Source of the DNA: Melioribacter roseus
Lineage (GTDB): Bacteria; Bacteroidota; Ignavibacteria; Ignavibacteriales; Melioribacteraceae
Direction of reading: 5' to 3'
Assembly (NCBI GenBank): GCA_020723165.1
Contig: DYJK01000007.1
Location: forward strand, 1-59,378
DNA: 59,378 nt
Made by a program: the position numbers and the translations under genes. The notes under the pieces were generated by a model. That model did not search any database, had not been told where the DNA came from, and worked only from the letters and a program-made list of their open reading frames with translations. Positions 372 through 5,108 of the stretch are shown in pieces. Each line of letters begins with the position of its first letter. Position 1 is the first letter of the stretch.

Positions 372-1070
372 ATGATAAAGACCGAACAAATACTTTCAGC
401 GGATATTCTAAACAAACTTCTTCTCTTTTCAGAATTAACAGTTCAACAAGCAAAAAAAATTATTCTCATTTGCAAGATCATCAATTACAGAAAAAACGAA
501 ATCATATTTACTGAAGGCGATCAATACAAAGGTTTTTATATTTTATTAAACGGCTCGGTGAAAATTTATAAGATATCGTTCGAGGGAAAGGAATCAATCC
601 TTCATTTGATCAAACCCTTTGAATCGTTTGGTGATGTTCCCCTTTTTGAAGGCGGTAATTATCCGGTAAATGCTCAGGTAATTTCCGATTCGGAGTTAGT
701 TTTCATTCCAAGCAAAGAATTTATTCAATTGATAAAAAATAATTCTACTATTTGTTTTAATATGCTTGTCGGCTTTGCAAAAAAGATGCGACGGCTTACA
801 CAAAAAGTAGAAGAGCTTTCCACCAAAGAAGTAACTAATCGTTTTGCAAGATATCTTCTCGATGAAATCAAAAAAAACAGCACTGAAAATCTCCCCGAAC
901 CTTTTGTAAGAATGACAATATCAAAAAAGAATATTGCCTCTTACATCGGAACAATTACCGATACGTTATCGCGGTTATTAAAAAAATTACAAAGCGAAAA
1001 AATTATCCGATTGTCAGGTAAATCAATTTTTATTCTGGATATGAATAAATTGAAATCCTTAGCAAGATAA
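372..1070 (+). CDS. Crp/Fnr-family transcriptional regulator
   Basis: Cytoplasmic DNA-binding regulator of 232 residues, normal length for the family. An N-terminal cyclic-nucleotide-binding-type jelly roll covers about residues 15-130 (FTEGDQYKGFYILLNG is the typical turn) and a C-terminal winged helix about 150-225, with the recognition region near SKKNIASYIGTITDTLSRLL (184-203). Only Cys34 and Cys128 are present, so the N-terminal cysteine cluster of oxygen-sensing FNR is absent. The Arg/Ser pair that holds cAMP in CRP is not evident. It sits just before genes for a hemerythrin and a NorB-like oxidase, so an NO- or redox-sensing role of the DNR/NNR kind is an inference from context. No Shine-Dalgarno site precedes the ATG. 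Confidence 0.9.
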   Translation: MIKTEQILSADILNKLLLFSELTVQQAKKIILICKIINYRKNEIIFTEGDQYKGFYILLNGSVKIYKISFEGKESILHLIKPFESFGDVPLFEGGNYPVNAQVISDSELVFIPSKEFIQLIKNNSTICFNMLVGFAKKMRRLTQKVEELSTKEVTNRFARYLLDEIKKNSTENLPEPFVRMTISKKNIASYIGTITDTLSRLLKKLQSEKIIRLSGKSIFILDMNKLKSLAR

Positions 1071-1187: not shown

Positions 1188-1802
1188 ATGACACTTACAA
1201 TTTCTAAACTTGCAAAATTTTTAGCAGTTACTGCTTTTATATTCTTAATATCATCAACAACATCTAATGCACATTGCGATGGATTAGATGGACCACTTAT
1301 TAAAGATGCACGAAAAGCACTCGAAACCGGTAATGTTAATCTTGTACTGATTTGGGTAAAAGAAGAAAATCAGAAAGAAATTACTGATGCATTCAACAAA
1401 ACACTTGCAATTCGTAAACTTTCACCCGAAGCAAAAGAATTTGCCGACATGTATTTTTTTGAAACTTTAGTACGAATTCACAGAGCCGGAGAAGGTGCAT
1501 CGTATACCGGTATTAAACCGGCTGGAAGAGATTTAGGACCGGCAATTCCGGCAGCGGATAAGGCAATTGAAACCGGTTCTCCAAAAGAATTAGTTAAATT
1601 TTTAGAAGAAGCGGTGCATAACGGTTTACATCCTTTGTACACTGGGGTTCAAAAGAAAAAGAATTTTGATCCGAATAATGTTAATGCCGGCAGAGAATAC
1701 GTAAAAGCATATGTTGAATTTGTTCATTATGTAGAAAAAATTTATCTATTAACTTCCGGTAATACACATGGCGAAGAAGGAGCAGAGGCTCATTCACATT
1801 AA
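1188..1802 (+). CDS. Secreted DUF6448-family protein
   Basis: 204 residues. The first 28 or so form a signal peptide ending SNA, followed at once by the family hallmark HCDGLDGP and then KDARKALETGNV. The rest is predicted mainly helical, with several His residues (RIHRAGEG, EAVHNGLHPLY, FVHYVEKIY) and a His/Glu-rich tail (HGEEGAEAHSH). I recognise the family as DUF6448, whose biochemical role is unknown to me. The exported location, the conserved His residues and the neighbouring hemerythrin and oxidase genes suggest a metal- or heme-related periplasmic function. The start has a good ribosome site, GGAG about nine bases before the ATG. Confidence 0.75.
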   Translation: MTLTISKLAKFLAVTAFIFLISSTTSNAHCDGLDGPLIKDARKALETGNVNLVLIWVKEENQKEITDAFNKTLAIRKLSPEAKEFADMYFFETLVRIHRAGEGASYTGIKPAGRDLGPAIPAADKAIETGSPKELVKFLEEAVHNGLHPLYTGVQKKKNFDPNNVNAGREYVKAYVEFVHYVEKIYLLTSGNTHGEEGAEAHSH

Positions 1803-1886: not shown

Positions 1887-2330
1887 ATGCAATTCACAAT
1901 TCCAAAACCCCTTAAGATTGAACATGAGGAATTACATGCTCAGTTATTTAAGGCAACAAAAGAAGAAGGAGAAGTTGGAACAGCGGCAAAAAATGTTGCT
2001 AAGATCTTACACAACCATTTTGTAAAAGAAGAAGAATTTGCAACTCCTCCGCTTGGATTGTTAATCGAACTCTCAAAAGGTATTGTTACAGAAGGGATGA
2101 AATCCGTTCTTGAAATGACAGAAAAACTTAGAGCCGAACTTCCGCAAATTTTGGAAGAACATAAAATGATAAAAGATGCTCTACAAAATTTAATTTCTGT
2201 TTCAGTAAAAGAAAATAAGCCAGAATACGCAGAGTTTGCCAGCAGACTAATTCTTCATGCACAAACCGAAGAAGAGGTAATGTATCCGGCAGCTCTCTTA
2301 ATCGGCGAGTATATAAAAACAAAACTATAG
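1887..2330 (+). CDS. Hemerythrin-like HHE domain protein
   Basis: 147-residue cytoplasmic four-helix protein. Candidate di-iron ligands are spaced as in HHE hemerythrins: His13, His42/His44, Glu48, His92, His124 and Glu128. Proteins of this family bind O2 or NO at a di-iron centre, or act in iron handling or repair of nitrosylated iron centres (compare YtfE/RIC). Here it is 84 bases after the DUF6448 gene and 26 before a membrane protein gene, so it is likely part of one NO- or oxygen-responsive unit. There is no signal peptide and no fused domain. Function beyond di-iron binding is inference. Confidence 0.85.
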   Translation: MQFTIPKPLKIEHEELHAQLFKATKEEGEVGTAAKNVAKILHNHFVKEEEFATPPLGLLIELSKGIVTEGMKSVLEMTEKLRAELPQILEEHKMIKDALQNLISVSVKENKPEYAEFASRLILHAQTEEEVMYPAALLIGEYIKTKL

Positions 2331-2356: not shown

Positions 2357-2815
2357 ATGTTTTCTACCGTAAGATATTTTGTAAAGACCAGTATAATATT
2401 CCTCATCATAGGAATTGTTACTGGTCTTTACTTGTTAATTATGCGGAATTACTTTAATACTTGGCCTCGTCCTGATTTGGTTTCAGCTCATACGCATATA
2501 ATTCTTGTCGGTTCAGTAATGATGATGATTATGGGAGTAGCATTATGGTTCTTCCCCCGTGCTGAGAAAGATGACAAACTATACAAACCTAATATTATCC
2601 TTACAGCATATCTTATAATTACTTTATCTACTATTACCAGGTTTGTATCCCAGATAATTTCTGCTTTTGTTCAAACAGATGGACTGCTAAAATTTCTGCT
2701 TACTATTTCTTCGATCGGCCAGGTAATTGGTATCATAATATTTTTCATTTCCATTTGGGGAAGAATTAGATCAGTCGGGAGTCATATTCGAGAAGCTAAA
2801 GGAGAAAAATTTTAG
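2357..2815 (+). CDS. Small four-helix membrane protein resembling a heme-copper oxidase subunit I fragment
   Basis: 152 residues with four predicted membrane helices (about 11-31, 46-66, 80-100, 112-134). The second carries AHTHI (His45, His47) followed by GSVMMMIMGVALWFFPR, the pattern seen around the first heme ligand helix of cbb3/NorB-type subunits. It is far too short to be a full catalytic subunit (usually above 450 residues) and has no second ligand helix. Proteins of this size often sit beside NO-reductase or copper genes, where they may bind heme or help assembly. Strong ribosome site GGAGGG before the ATG. The exact function is not known to me. Confidence 0.6.
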   Translation: MFSTVRYFVKTSIIFLIIGIVTGLYLLIMRNYFNTWPRPDLVSAHTHIILVGSVMMMIMGVALWFFPRAEKDDKLYKPNIILTAYLIITLSTITRFVSQIISAFVQTDGLLKFLLTISSIGQVIGIIIFFISIWGRIRSVGSHIREAKGEKF

Positions 2816-2890
2816 TAAAAAATTTTTTATGCTCAAATACGATATGCCGATATTAATTAACCAATTTGTTCTATAAAAAAAGGTGAAACT

Positions 2891-3454
2891 ATGATTGATT
2901 CAAGCGTAGTATTAACGGGACAAGCTATAGCTTACACACTTTACGTCCTTGTCATAATGATTTTGATTGGATGGTTCGCTTACAAGGTAACACGAGTAGG
3001 AAAAAATTCAATTATTAAACCGGCACTCTTTTATTCGTTTGTCGGTCTATTAGTAATAATTGGAGTTTCCCTTCATATCGTTACCTATAACACCATTCCC
3101 TGGGCTTCGATGGATTTGAACAGAGATGATATCAAACCCGATAAAGTTTTCAACATTAATGTTGAGAATCATCAATTCAAACTTCCATCAGAAAAATTAA
3201 TTATTAATTCAGGCGAAAAAGTTTTGTTCAATGTAACATCAAATGATTTGACTTATGGATTTGGTTTGTTCAGAGAAGACAATTCTATGGTATTCCAAAT
3301 GCAAGTTGTACCTGGTCATATGAACGATATACTCTGGCGGTTCGACAAACCGGCAGTTTATACGATACGCTCTACCGAATATTCAGGTCCAAAAGGAAAT
3401 GATATGATCGTAAAAAATGCCGTTGAAGTAATTGAAACAAATAATTTTGATTAA
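2891..3454 (+). CDS. Heme-copper oxidase subunit II-like protein lacking CuA ligands
   Basis: 187 residues: two N-terminal membrane helices (about 11-31 and 45-64) and a C-terminal cupredoxin-like domain (about 85-182), the layout of oxidase subunit II. The CuA loop is recognisable but disarmed. The family pattern C-S-E-x-C-G-x-x-H-x-x-M reads STEYSGPKGNDM (161-172), so both Cys are Ser and the His is Gly; only Glu163 and Met172 remain. The upstream His is Tyr122. It therefore should not bind CuA. It lies 31 bases before the catalytic subunit gene and is probably its structural partner. Loss of CuA occurs in quinol-oxidising members and in some NO-reductase-type complexes; which applies here is not decided by sequence alone. 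Confidence 0.8.
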   Translation: MIDSSVVLTGQAIAYTLYVLVIMILIGWFAYKVTRVGKNSIIKPALFYSFVGLLVIIGVSLHIVTYNTIPWASMDLNRDDIKPDKVFNINVENHQFKLPSEKLIINSGEKVLFNVTSNDLTYGFGLFREDNSMVFQMQVVPGHMNDILWRFDKPAVYTIRSTEYSGPKGNDMIVKNAVEVIETNNFD

Positions 3455-3485
3455 ACTTATTTCTAACTAAACATGAGAAATTAAT

Positions 3486-5108
3486 ATGAGTTTTTTAAAA
3501 ACGTTAATTTACGGCGAACAAGGATTGTTCAAACCTGACACCTTAACGCCCATGCAAAAAATGACGCTCCGGTTTGTAGTGATAGGATTGATTTATTACG
3601 GATTCGCGGTTGTTGAGGGAATGATTATGAGAGTTCACTTGGTTACACCGGTACCGACTGTTGATACAAACCAGTACTATGCAATTTTGACTGCACATCC
3701 ACTTGTTGGAATTTTTGGTTCAACATATCCTATTGTGTTCGGTGCATTTTTATTTCTTGTCCCTTTCCTAATGAAAAAACCATTATGGAGTATTAAGCTT
3801 GCTAATTGGACTGCCGCGTTAATTGGATTTGGAACCTTAACTTTTTGGTTAGCCGGTTTCATTAGTGAATATGCACCACTTTATACTCTTTACTGGCCTC
3901 TGCCGGCAGATTTCACTCAATTCAATCCATTGGGTGGATCATTCTTTATACTCGGTATTGCCCTTGTAATGGTGGGAACAGTCTTTTTTGTTATCAATAT
4001 TTTTAAAACAATTACTTACACTCCACAAGGATGGGAAAAACAACCGGGTGGGGCATTAATTGCTTCTGCACTCGGAATTAGCGGAATAAAAAATCTATTC
4101 AGAAAAAAGAAAGAAGAACATCTTGTTTCTTTACCGGTAGCTGCAATTGCTCGCGGTACTGTTGATACTGCACTTAATGCCGGAATTATTTTATTCACCG
4201 GCGTATTAATTCTTATCTACATGCTTTCATATTTTTTCGGATATGATTTAAAACATTCTTCCATAGATGCTCTGCTTTACAAAAATTGGTTTTGGTGGGG
4301 ACTCGATTTAATAGCAGACGGAATGGTTCTGATTTTTGTAGCCGGAACGTGGTACCTACTCGCAACACTAATCACCGGTAAAAAACTTTATATGGAAAAT
4401 ATTGCACGTGCCGCATTGCTTGTGGAACTTGTTGTATCATGGACGGTTTGGTCTCACCATTTATTATCAGATCAAGCACAGCCCGGAATTTTAAAAGTTG
4501 TTTCCGGTGAGATGGTAACCGCATTTGAATTGATCACACAAGGACTTGCATTCTTCATTACGCTTGTAACTTTGTGGAGTGCACGTCCATTGCAAATGAA
4601 CAATCCATTAAAATTTTTACTCGGTGGTTTACTCGGTTTTGCATTAGCAGTACCAGCCGGTATTATGCAAGCTGACATTGGTTTGAACAGAATTCTTCAT
4701 AACACTCAATGGATAGTTGGTCCGCACGTGCATGTCGCAGTATTGGTTGGTTTGACGATGACACTCTATTCTGCTATTTATTTTCTTTTCCCGATTTTAA
4801 CAAATGGTGCAAAACTGTACAGTCAAAAACTTGCAACATTTCATTTTTGGGCTCATCTGCTTGGCGGAATTGGAATGGGTGCTTTTATGGGCATGGCCGG
4901 ACTTAAAGGGATGCTGAGACGAACTCTCTATTTTAACGGTGAATTTAATTTGTACATGATATTAGCTGCGTTAGCCGGATCGTTACTTTTATTTTCTTTC
5001 ATTGCATTCTTCTTTAACATTGTTATGAGTGTTGGTTTGAAAGGTGTGATAGGAATTTTTATGCCGGCAAAATTAAAAACAAAAGATTTGTTGCCAGCTG
5101 AGAAGTAA
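3486..5108 (+). CDS. Atypical heme-copper oxidoreductase catalytic subunit, probable nitric oxide reductase type
   Basis: 540 residues with about 12-14 membrane helices. Heme ligands are visible: His71 (AHPLVG, low-spin heme) and His414/His416 in GPHVHVAV (high- and low-spin heme). The His-His pair of the active-site metal is His324-His325 (WSHHLL). The third-ligand helix reads NWFWWGLDLIADG (267-279) and aligns with NorB VVHLWVEG, so the metal-ligand His (207 in Pseudomonas NorB) becomes Asp274 and the FeB Glu (211) becomes Asp278. The oxidase HPEVY motif is absent. This favours NO reduction or another non-standard reaction over O2 reduction; substrate and electron donor are unproven. The partner subunit II precedes it, and a terminator follows. 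Confidence 0.8.
   Translation: MSFLKTLIYGEQGLFKPDTLTPMQKMTLRFVVIGLIYYGFAVVEGMIMRVHLVTPVPTVDTNQYYAILTAHPLVGIFGSTYPIVFGAFLFLVPFLMKKPLWSIKLANWTAALIGFGTLTFWLAGFISEYAPLYTLYWPLPADFTQFNPLGGSFFILGIALVMVGTVFFVINIFKTITYTPQGWEKQPGGALIASALGISGIKNLFRKKKEEHLVSLPVAAIARGTVDTALNAGIILFTGVLILIYMLSYFFGYDLKHSSIDALLYKNWFWWGLDLIADGMVLIFVAGTWYLLATLITGKKLYMENIARAALLVELVVSWTVWSHHLLSDQAQPGILKVVSGEMVTAFELITQGLAFFITLVTLWSARPLQMNNPLKFLLGGLLGFALAVPAGIMQADIGLNRILHNTQWIVGPHVHVAVLVGLTMTLYSAIYFLFPILTNGAKLYSQKLATFHFWAHLLGGIGMGAFMGMAGLKGMLRRTLYFNGEFNLYMILAALAGSLLLFSFIAFFFNIVMSVGLKGVIGIFMPAKLKTKDLLPAEK

Follow-up and report, generated by a model that had tools for sequence, protein, structure and literature searches.

A predicted gNOR-type nitric oxide reductase with a conserved aspartate pair at its active site in Melioribacter roseus

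Two adjacent genes of the window, the whole stretch of 59,378 nucleotides of Melioribacter roseus DNA that was analysed, are very probably those of subunits I and II of gNOR, a predicted nitric oxide (NO) reductase of the heme-copper superfamily (Table 1). The catalytic gene is a further member of a family that has been published but only predicted to reduce NO, and the two aspartate residues that it carries in the helix of the third metal ligand are, as judged from the comparison of sequences, the signature of that family, present in all the loci readable among the matches listed, and not a departure from it.

The gNOR family was reportedly defined in a PNAS paper of 2024. In Table A4 of PMC8756737 (modified from Hemp and Gennis, 2008) gNOR is marked by an aspartate at the position of the active-site tyrosine, a rule drawn from Sulfurimonas, Sulfurovum and Persephonella, the same position being occupied by glutamine in eNOR, by asparagine in sNOR and CuANOR and by glutamate in cNOR and qNOR; a cupredoxin second subunit is predicted in that source for sNOR, gNOR and eNOR. 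PMC11388526 calls gNOR proposed rather than characterised, counts only cNOR, qNOR, bNOR and eNOR as characterised NO reductases and states that gNOR is related to the B-family oxygen reductases. A search of the openly accessible literature, subscription papers and preprints aside, found no activity assay of a gNOR.

The catalytic subunit and its ligand residues

The catalytic gene starts with an ATG at 3486 and stops at 5108 on the + strand, and its product of 540 amino acid residues matches the Pfam family COX1 with 191.8 bits over residues 26-499; the product is a complete subunit I of the heme-copper oxidoreductases. Its best NCBIfam match, the cytochrome oxidase CtaD, reaches 104.8 bits, the cut-off of that model being 670.75. 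The putative ligands lie in the local motifs WWGLDLIADG (Asp274 and Asp278), WSHHL (His324 and His325) and GPHVH (His414 and His416), and the residues named in a sequence-only reading of this DNA (His71, Asp274, Asp278, His324/His325 and His414/His416) are all present at those positions of the translation. That reading had also set the motif outside those of the O2 reductases, cNOR and qNOR, and we agree: instead of the A-type pattern of three histidines at CuB and a tyrosine in the same helix there are two histidines and an aspartate, with an aspartate at the tyrosine position, and instead of the HLWVE histidine and glutamate in the third-ligand helix of cNOR and qNOR there are Asp274 and Asp278, so that Asp/Asp stands against His and Tyr or His and Glu.

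Table 1. Features of the gNOR locus in the window
Feature	Position	Strand	Basis or remark
Crp/Fnr-family regulator that probably controls the cluster	372-1070	+	
DUF6448 protein, a repeated neighbour in operons of this type	1188-1802	+	
Hemerythrin-like protein, possibly an NO/O2-related accessory	1887-2330	+	Also in L007
152-aa membrane protein similar to the N-terminal region of COX1 and NnrS	2357-2815	+	Sub-threshold Pfam hits; an adjacent gene that is not conserved as part of gNOR
Predicted gNOR subunit II of cupredoxin type with a membrane anchor; CuA Cys/His ligands lost	2891-3454	+	CoxB-like, 34.2 bits, below the cut-off of that model
Predicted gNOR subunit I (catalytic)	3486-5108	+	COX1 family, 540 aa, one clade with Sulfurimonas/Sulfurovum relatives
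His71 codon, low-spin haem ligand position (TM2)	3696-3698	+	His in 101/101 readable loci among the matches listed (18 have no residue there)
Asp274 codon, replaces the third His ligand of metal B	4305-4307	+	hhalign against cNOR and A-type, spacing, conservation; cbb3 alignments one residue off
Asp278 codon, replaces the active-site Tyr (oxidases) or Glu (c/qNOR); gNOR diagnostic residue	4317-4319	+	Rule tabulated in PMC8756737, hhalign, conservation
His324-His325 codons, two remaining His ligands of metal B	4455-4460	+	His in 113/113 readable loci among the matches listed
His405-N-T-Q-W-x-x-G-x-His414-x-His416, high-spin and low-spin haem ligands	4698-4733	+	Motif, alignments

The predicted structure (AlphaFold, 43 aligned rows) has a mean pLDDT of 80.5 and a pTM of 0.85, with low pLDDT at the active-site helices (53 over residues 271-280 and 48 over residues 401-410). 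By VIA-align the model resembles oxidase subunit I structures over nearly its full length (Z 33-36, rmsd about 3, approximately 465 residues aligned). At the level of a model, the fold search confirms the superfamily fold and says nothing on the orientation of the aspartates; NO reductase chains were absent among the fold-search matches listed, an absence that excludes nothing.

Which of the two aspartates takes the place of the histidine depends on the register of the third-ligand helix. Aligned with hhalign to a profile of seven NorB-type proteins of Campylobacterota, Asp274 falls on the ligand histidine and Asp278 on the glutamate of HLWVE, with no gap in the helix; against five A-type subunits Asp274 again falls on the CuB histidine, followed by a four-column gap. 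The alignments to cbb3 (hhalign and phmmer) are shifted by one residue, placing Leu273 on the histidine and Asp274 on the following asparagine, and an HMM profile alignment to yeast Cox1 places Asp278 on the histidine, at the cost of a four-column gap. The distance to the His-His pair of TM7 offers a further measure: from Asp274 it is 50 residues in 91 of the 92 full-length relatives compared and 51 in the remaining one, and the ligand histidine lies 49 residues away in three A-type sequences, 50 in two of cbb3 type and 51 in three of c/qNOR type, whereas from Asp278 it would be 46. The spacing favours Asp274, not Asp278, at the third-ligand position, with alignments that are not unanimous. 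The sequence-only reading, in which the helix aligned with that of NorB and both the histidine and the glutamate had become aspartate, is confirmed as an observation.

We also identified seven carboxylate residues that are invariant in the 93 full-length sequences (Asp142, Asp227, Asp261, Glu314, Asp329, Glu348 and Asp397) and that are candidates for a proton path. In the alignments with A-type, cbb3 and cNOR sequences, one extra residue stands between the conserved His405 and His414-x-His416, and this residue is also present in the relatives L007-L013, which the spacing-dependent scan did not pick.

Conservation and distribution

GTDB species genomes were scanned at the DNA level for the TM10 pattern H-N-T-x-W-x-x-G-x-H-x-H, which demands the spacing longer by one residue and makes no demand on TM6, which yielded at least 119 loci, all with an open reading frame (ORF) related to the window protein. 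Asp274 and Asp278 are both aspartate in 110 of the 110 readable loci among the matches listed, nine having no residue there. Since the scan asked for TM10 only, this conservation of a TM6 pair was not built into it; chance is excluded as the source of the pair, which is no local oddity.

The loci fall into 13 named phyla, with 60 in Bacteroidota, 36 in Campylobacterota and 23 in others among the matches listed (Actinomycetota, Acidobacteriota, Ignavibacteriota, Myxococcota, Chlorobiota, Chloroflexota, Spirochaetota, Gemmatimonadota, Bacillota, Fidelibacterota and Pseudomonadota, or no phylum in the record title). Single odd phyla may represent binning errors, since most record titles are those of metagenome-assembled genomes. 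No Persephonella locus was found among the matches listed of the TM10-pattern scan. All the full-length relatives aligned are at least 57% identical to the window protein (78-85% for seven from its own phylum, 57-62% for the main Campylobacterota group and 66-69% for a few other Campylobacterota members). Two Campylobacterota proteins (L110 and L132) cluster with a protein from Woeseiaceae (L103; 96/100), apart from the main Campylobacterota clade, a grouping that points to transfer between phyla or to a binning error.

Within the phylum of the window the gene was matched in 10 of 296 and in 11 of 395 sampled genomes, counts that include a gene split over two contigs (G156) and a 94-aa remnant (G263). 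Among plasmids, 42 records matched the window protein, all below 60% identity (approximately 22-28%) and, where annotated, as cytochrome oxidases; the four that were retrieved have A-type motifs, the haloarchaeal ones with HPEVY. Viral contigs yielded no relatives, the two pattern matches among them being rejected as out of frame within unrelated ORFs.

Subunit II and the electron donor

Of the 97 loci that have an upstream ORF at all (115 of the 119 listed loci being scorable), 90 carry the subunit II gene in the first position upstream: 45/45 in Bacteroidota, 31/33 in Campylobacterota and 14/19 in others among the matches listed. In the window protein the CuA ligand positions are occupied by Tyr122, Ser161, Ser165 and Gly169, with Glu163 and Met172 kept, and there is no cysteine anywhere. 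We compared these positions in 90 loci, the window and the 89 scan loci with a subunit II of at least 170 aa among the matches listed. At the two CuA cysteine positions, residue 161 is serine in 90/90 and residue 165 is serine in 85 and alanine in five; at the two histidine positions, Tyr122 is present in 90/90 and residue 169 is never histidine; Glu163 is kept in 90/90 and residue 172 is methionine in 86/90. As a control, the CtaC encoded by the host genome retains CAEYCGLNHSMM, exceeds the CoxB cut-off and lines up with STEYSGPKGNDM. The CuA motif is also absent from the Nostoc subunit II compared.

Loss of CuA is typical of quinol oxidases such as CyoA. Since the cysteine and histidine ligands are lost in 90/90 loci among the matches listed, quinol is the likelier donor to the window enzyme, rather than cytochrome c. 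PMC8906906 describes gNOR as quinone-oxidising and non-electrogenic.

Relationship to other heme-copper families

By profile comparison (hhalign) the window protein is most similar to A-type subunits (E 3.4e-24), then to cbb3 (2.2e-9), and marginally to cNOR (4.9% probability, E 0.008). The closeness to A-type subunit I, with which the fold is shared, would suit an enzyme that reduces O2, or both NO and O2, at an altered metal site, as would the adjoining regulators (Rrf2 and Crp/Fnr), which are not specific for NO, and the O2 respiration that is common among Campylobacterota. We nevertheless regard such an enzyme as improbable. The His-Pro-x-Val-Tyr motif and the three CuB histidines of A-type subunits are missing, so that the active-site tyrosine is absent and metal B is left with only two histidines in all of the 110 readable loci among the matches listed. 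Oxidases are, moreover, already at hand: the host genome has three COX1 members over the cut-off, namely an A-type oxidase, a cbb3-type protein (709-aa frame) and the gene studied here, and cbb3 proteins are present in the eight Campylobacterota genomes searched. Finally, the gene stands beside denitrification genes in two Sulfurimonas genomes, where NorB, a putative NorC and a cytochrome-d1 protein are divergent from gNOR, and in Aliarcobacter, where a radical-SAM protein and genes resembling those of heme-d1 biosynthesis lie just upstream (the names NorC, NirE, NirF and NirJ were assigned by eye; the NorB, cytochrome-d1 and radical-SAM proteins were checked).

The assignment to gNOR rests on the genera from which the published aspartate rule was drawn. 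We searched for COX1 members in eight Campylobacterota genomes, reached through loci of Sulfurimonas (three), Sulfurovum (three), Sulfurospirillum and Aliarcobacter, and obtained 28 matches, by motif eight cbb3, 11 NO reductases with HLWVE (one partial) and eight of the Asp/Asp type, one sub-threshold match staying unclassified. The Asp/Asp type occurs exactly once per genome and is the sole aspartate-bearing candidate over the cut-off in all eight; we therefore identify the gNOR of these genera with the Asp/Asp family. A tree was computed from 50 rows (the window protein, 28 hand-picked from 92 full-length relatives and 21 outgroup rows, which include A-type, cbb3, cNOR and qNOR, and no B-family, eNOR, sNOR or nNOR sequences). 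In it the window protein and the 28 relatives, with those of Sulfurimonas and Sulfurovum among them, are separated from A-type, cbb3, cNOR and qNOR by a branch with 98/98 support. The cNOR and qNOR rows join cbb3, away from this clade (99/95), and since the program flagged long branches between the families, their order is less sure than the clade itself. The window protein thus shares with the predicted gNOR (norGH) of Sulfurimonas, Sulfurovum and Persephonella, as tabulated in PMC8756737, the aspartate at the tyrosine position and the cupredoxin-type subunit II, together with the clade. According to the same source, eNOR, sNOR and bNOR also have a residue other than tyrosine in the active site, with a predicted cupredoxin subunit II in eNOR and sNOR, and are set apart from the window protein by that residue, glutamine in eNOR and asparagine in sNOR and bNOR (CuANOR).

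Known cNOR and qNOR (NorB and NorZ) take their electrons through cytochrome c or a fused quinol module. They share with the window protein the heme-copper fold, a carboxylate four residues past the third-ligand position and the expected reaction, and their HLWVE helix is in ungapped register with that of the window protein, as a divergent NorB with both His and Glu turned into Asp would require. Such a protein is most unlikely and was rejected on profile similarity and tree: the cNOR match is marginal (E 0.008) and far surpassed by those to A-type and cbb3, the tree joins c/qNOR to cbb3 on a branch separate from the window clade, the active-site residues are Asp and Asp rather than His and Glu, and the partner is a cupredoxin-type protein, not a cytochrome c. 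A separate NorB-type protein is, besides, present in the eight Campylobacterota genomes, close to gNOR in two Sulfurimonas, and the best PDB matches of two HLWVE proteins are NorB structures. Membership in nNOR rather than gNOR is scarcely to be expected of a protein that forms one clade with Sulfurimonas and Sulfurovum proteins bearing the aspartate tabulated for gNOR.

We return to the gNOR assignment, against which the remaining claims of the earlier reading can be set. Its separate clade of NO reductase-like proteins appears in the tree as the branch with 98/98 support. Its term "NorB-like" does not fit, with a profile closest to A-type and marginal to cNOR and with cNOR/qNOR grouped with cbb3 away from the clade; and where it could not place the protein among the atypical NO reductase clades, the aspartate rule as tabulated in PMC8756737 and the shared clade place it in gNOR.

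Nitrogen oxide genes in the host genome and its phylum

The host genome (3.8 Mb, 98% complete, 193 contigs) has a NirK of 343.6-345 bits with a C-terminal cytochrome c-like domain. The NorB and qNOR queries found no match in its 193 contigs, no NosZ came over the cut-off with either of two models, and NrfA was not found in the genome. Since NirK is present and neither cNOR nor qNOR was found, gNOR is the genome's only NO reductase candidate, with the caveat of an assembly in 193 contigs. A gene for a RIC-type iron-sulphur repair protein lies near that of NirK, the two being on G000:C59 (L199:5082-6653 and 2844-3602).

Across 395 genomes of the phylum, gNOR was not associated with NirK (3/11 genomes with gNOR against 60/384 without, p 0.39), and co-occurrence with NirK was rejected as proof of function, whereas qNOR was associated with it (17/38 against 46/357, p 8e-6). 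Both gNOR and qNOR occur in two of the 11 gNOR genomes (p 0.29), G014 being one with both. The test treats G156 (split gene) and G263 (94-aa remnant) as gNOR genomes, assumes that three samples of 395 genomes are identical, and is weak because there are only eleven gNOR genomes, one of them with a remnant. NirK or NosZ came over the cut-off in 7 of 11 genomes with a gNOR gene, against 12 of 16 without; the NirS model PF02239 gave only partial matches in 27 genomes, of up to 29.9 bits alone and 34.8 with neighbours. The remnant, a C-terminal piece of gNOR at G263:C85:12097-12378 (L015, L183), adjoins a Crp gene and has a qNOR on the same contig (C85:3312-4526), so that gNOR may have decayed in G263, where qNOR is present.

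Proposed mechanism and significance

The mechanism that we propose takes as its starting point the superfamily fold, the positions of the haem and metal ligands, the family membership, the partner gene and the loss of the CuA ligands. Electrons would enter from quinol, since subunit II appears to have no CuA centre, and would pass from the low-spin haem (His71/His416) to the high-spin haem (His414) and on to metal B. The ligands of metal B would be His324, His325 and Asp274, with Asp278 acting as a fourth ligand or as a proton carrier, and two histidines with a carboxylate would favour iron over copper. Two NO molecules would be coupled to N2O at this site, and in the host the enzyme may remove NO that comes from its own NirK or from outside.

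It is possible, if slightly the less probable outcome, that gNOR breaks the three-histidine rule for metal B in the heme-copper superfamily, with an iron bound by two histidines and one or two aspartates, like a facial triad, facing the haem; that it is fed by quinol through a cupredoxin subunit without CuA; and that many Bacteroidota and their neighbours, now scored as having no NO reductase, rely on it as their only respiratory one.

NO reductases are a main biological source of N2O. As NCBIfam has no good model for gNOR, genomes that rely on it can be scored as being without an NO reductase, and the host genome would be such a mis-scored case: NirK and gNOR are present, and cNOR, qNOR and NosZ were not found. 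From this combination, with NosZ not found, the host should release N2O. The aspartate pair provides a one-line sequence test for the gNOR family, and the first biochemical work on a gNOR would have a clear target in its metal site.

Gene neighbourhood

Upstream of subunit II the neighbourhood differs between groups. A regulator of the Rrf2 family is next upstream in 28/39 Bacteroidota, 1/31 Campylobacterota and 4/17 others, the denominators being the loci with a second ORF upstream among the matches listed; the one Rrf2 regulator tested came over the Rrf2 superfamily cut-off, its match to NsrR being below the cut-off. The window has a Crp/Fnr regulator, a DUF6448 protein, a hemerythrin and the 152-aa membrane protein, a similar order to that of L174, L175 and L177 (Crp, DUF6448, a protein with an ABM domain, the 152-aa protein, subunit II and gNOR), which have the ABM protein where the window has the hemerythrin.

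The 152-aa protein carries the motif AHTHIILVG and is possibly a haem-binding accessory protein. In five loci (the window, L174, L175, L177 and L180) its gene immediately precedes that of subunit II, and in L183 a sixth copy stands 3.6 kb away from the gNOR remnant. Its cluster comprises these six loci only, and it was rejected as a general gNOR subunit. In Campylobacterota, unlike in the window, two other genes follow gNOR in most loci: among the matches listed, the small genes c2 and c4 occur in 30 and 25, respectively, of the 35 loci with a downstream ORF, and they comprise a 201-aa protein without a Pfam match and a YcxB-like protein (L168-L173). DUF6448 homologues are found in seven stretches with gNOR (the window, L068, L174, L175, L176, L177 and L183), mostly upstream of it.
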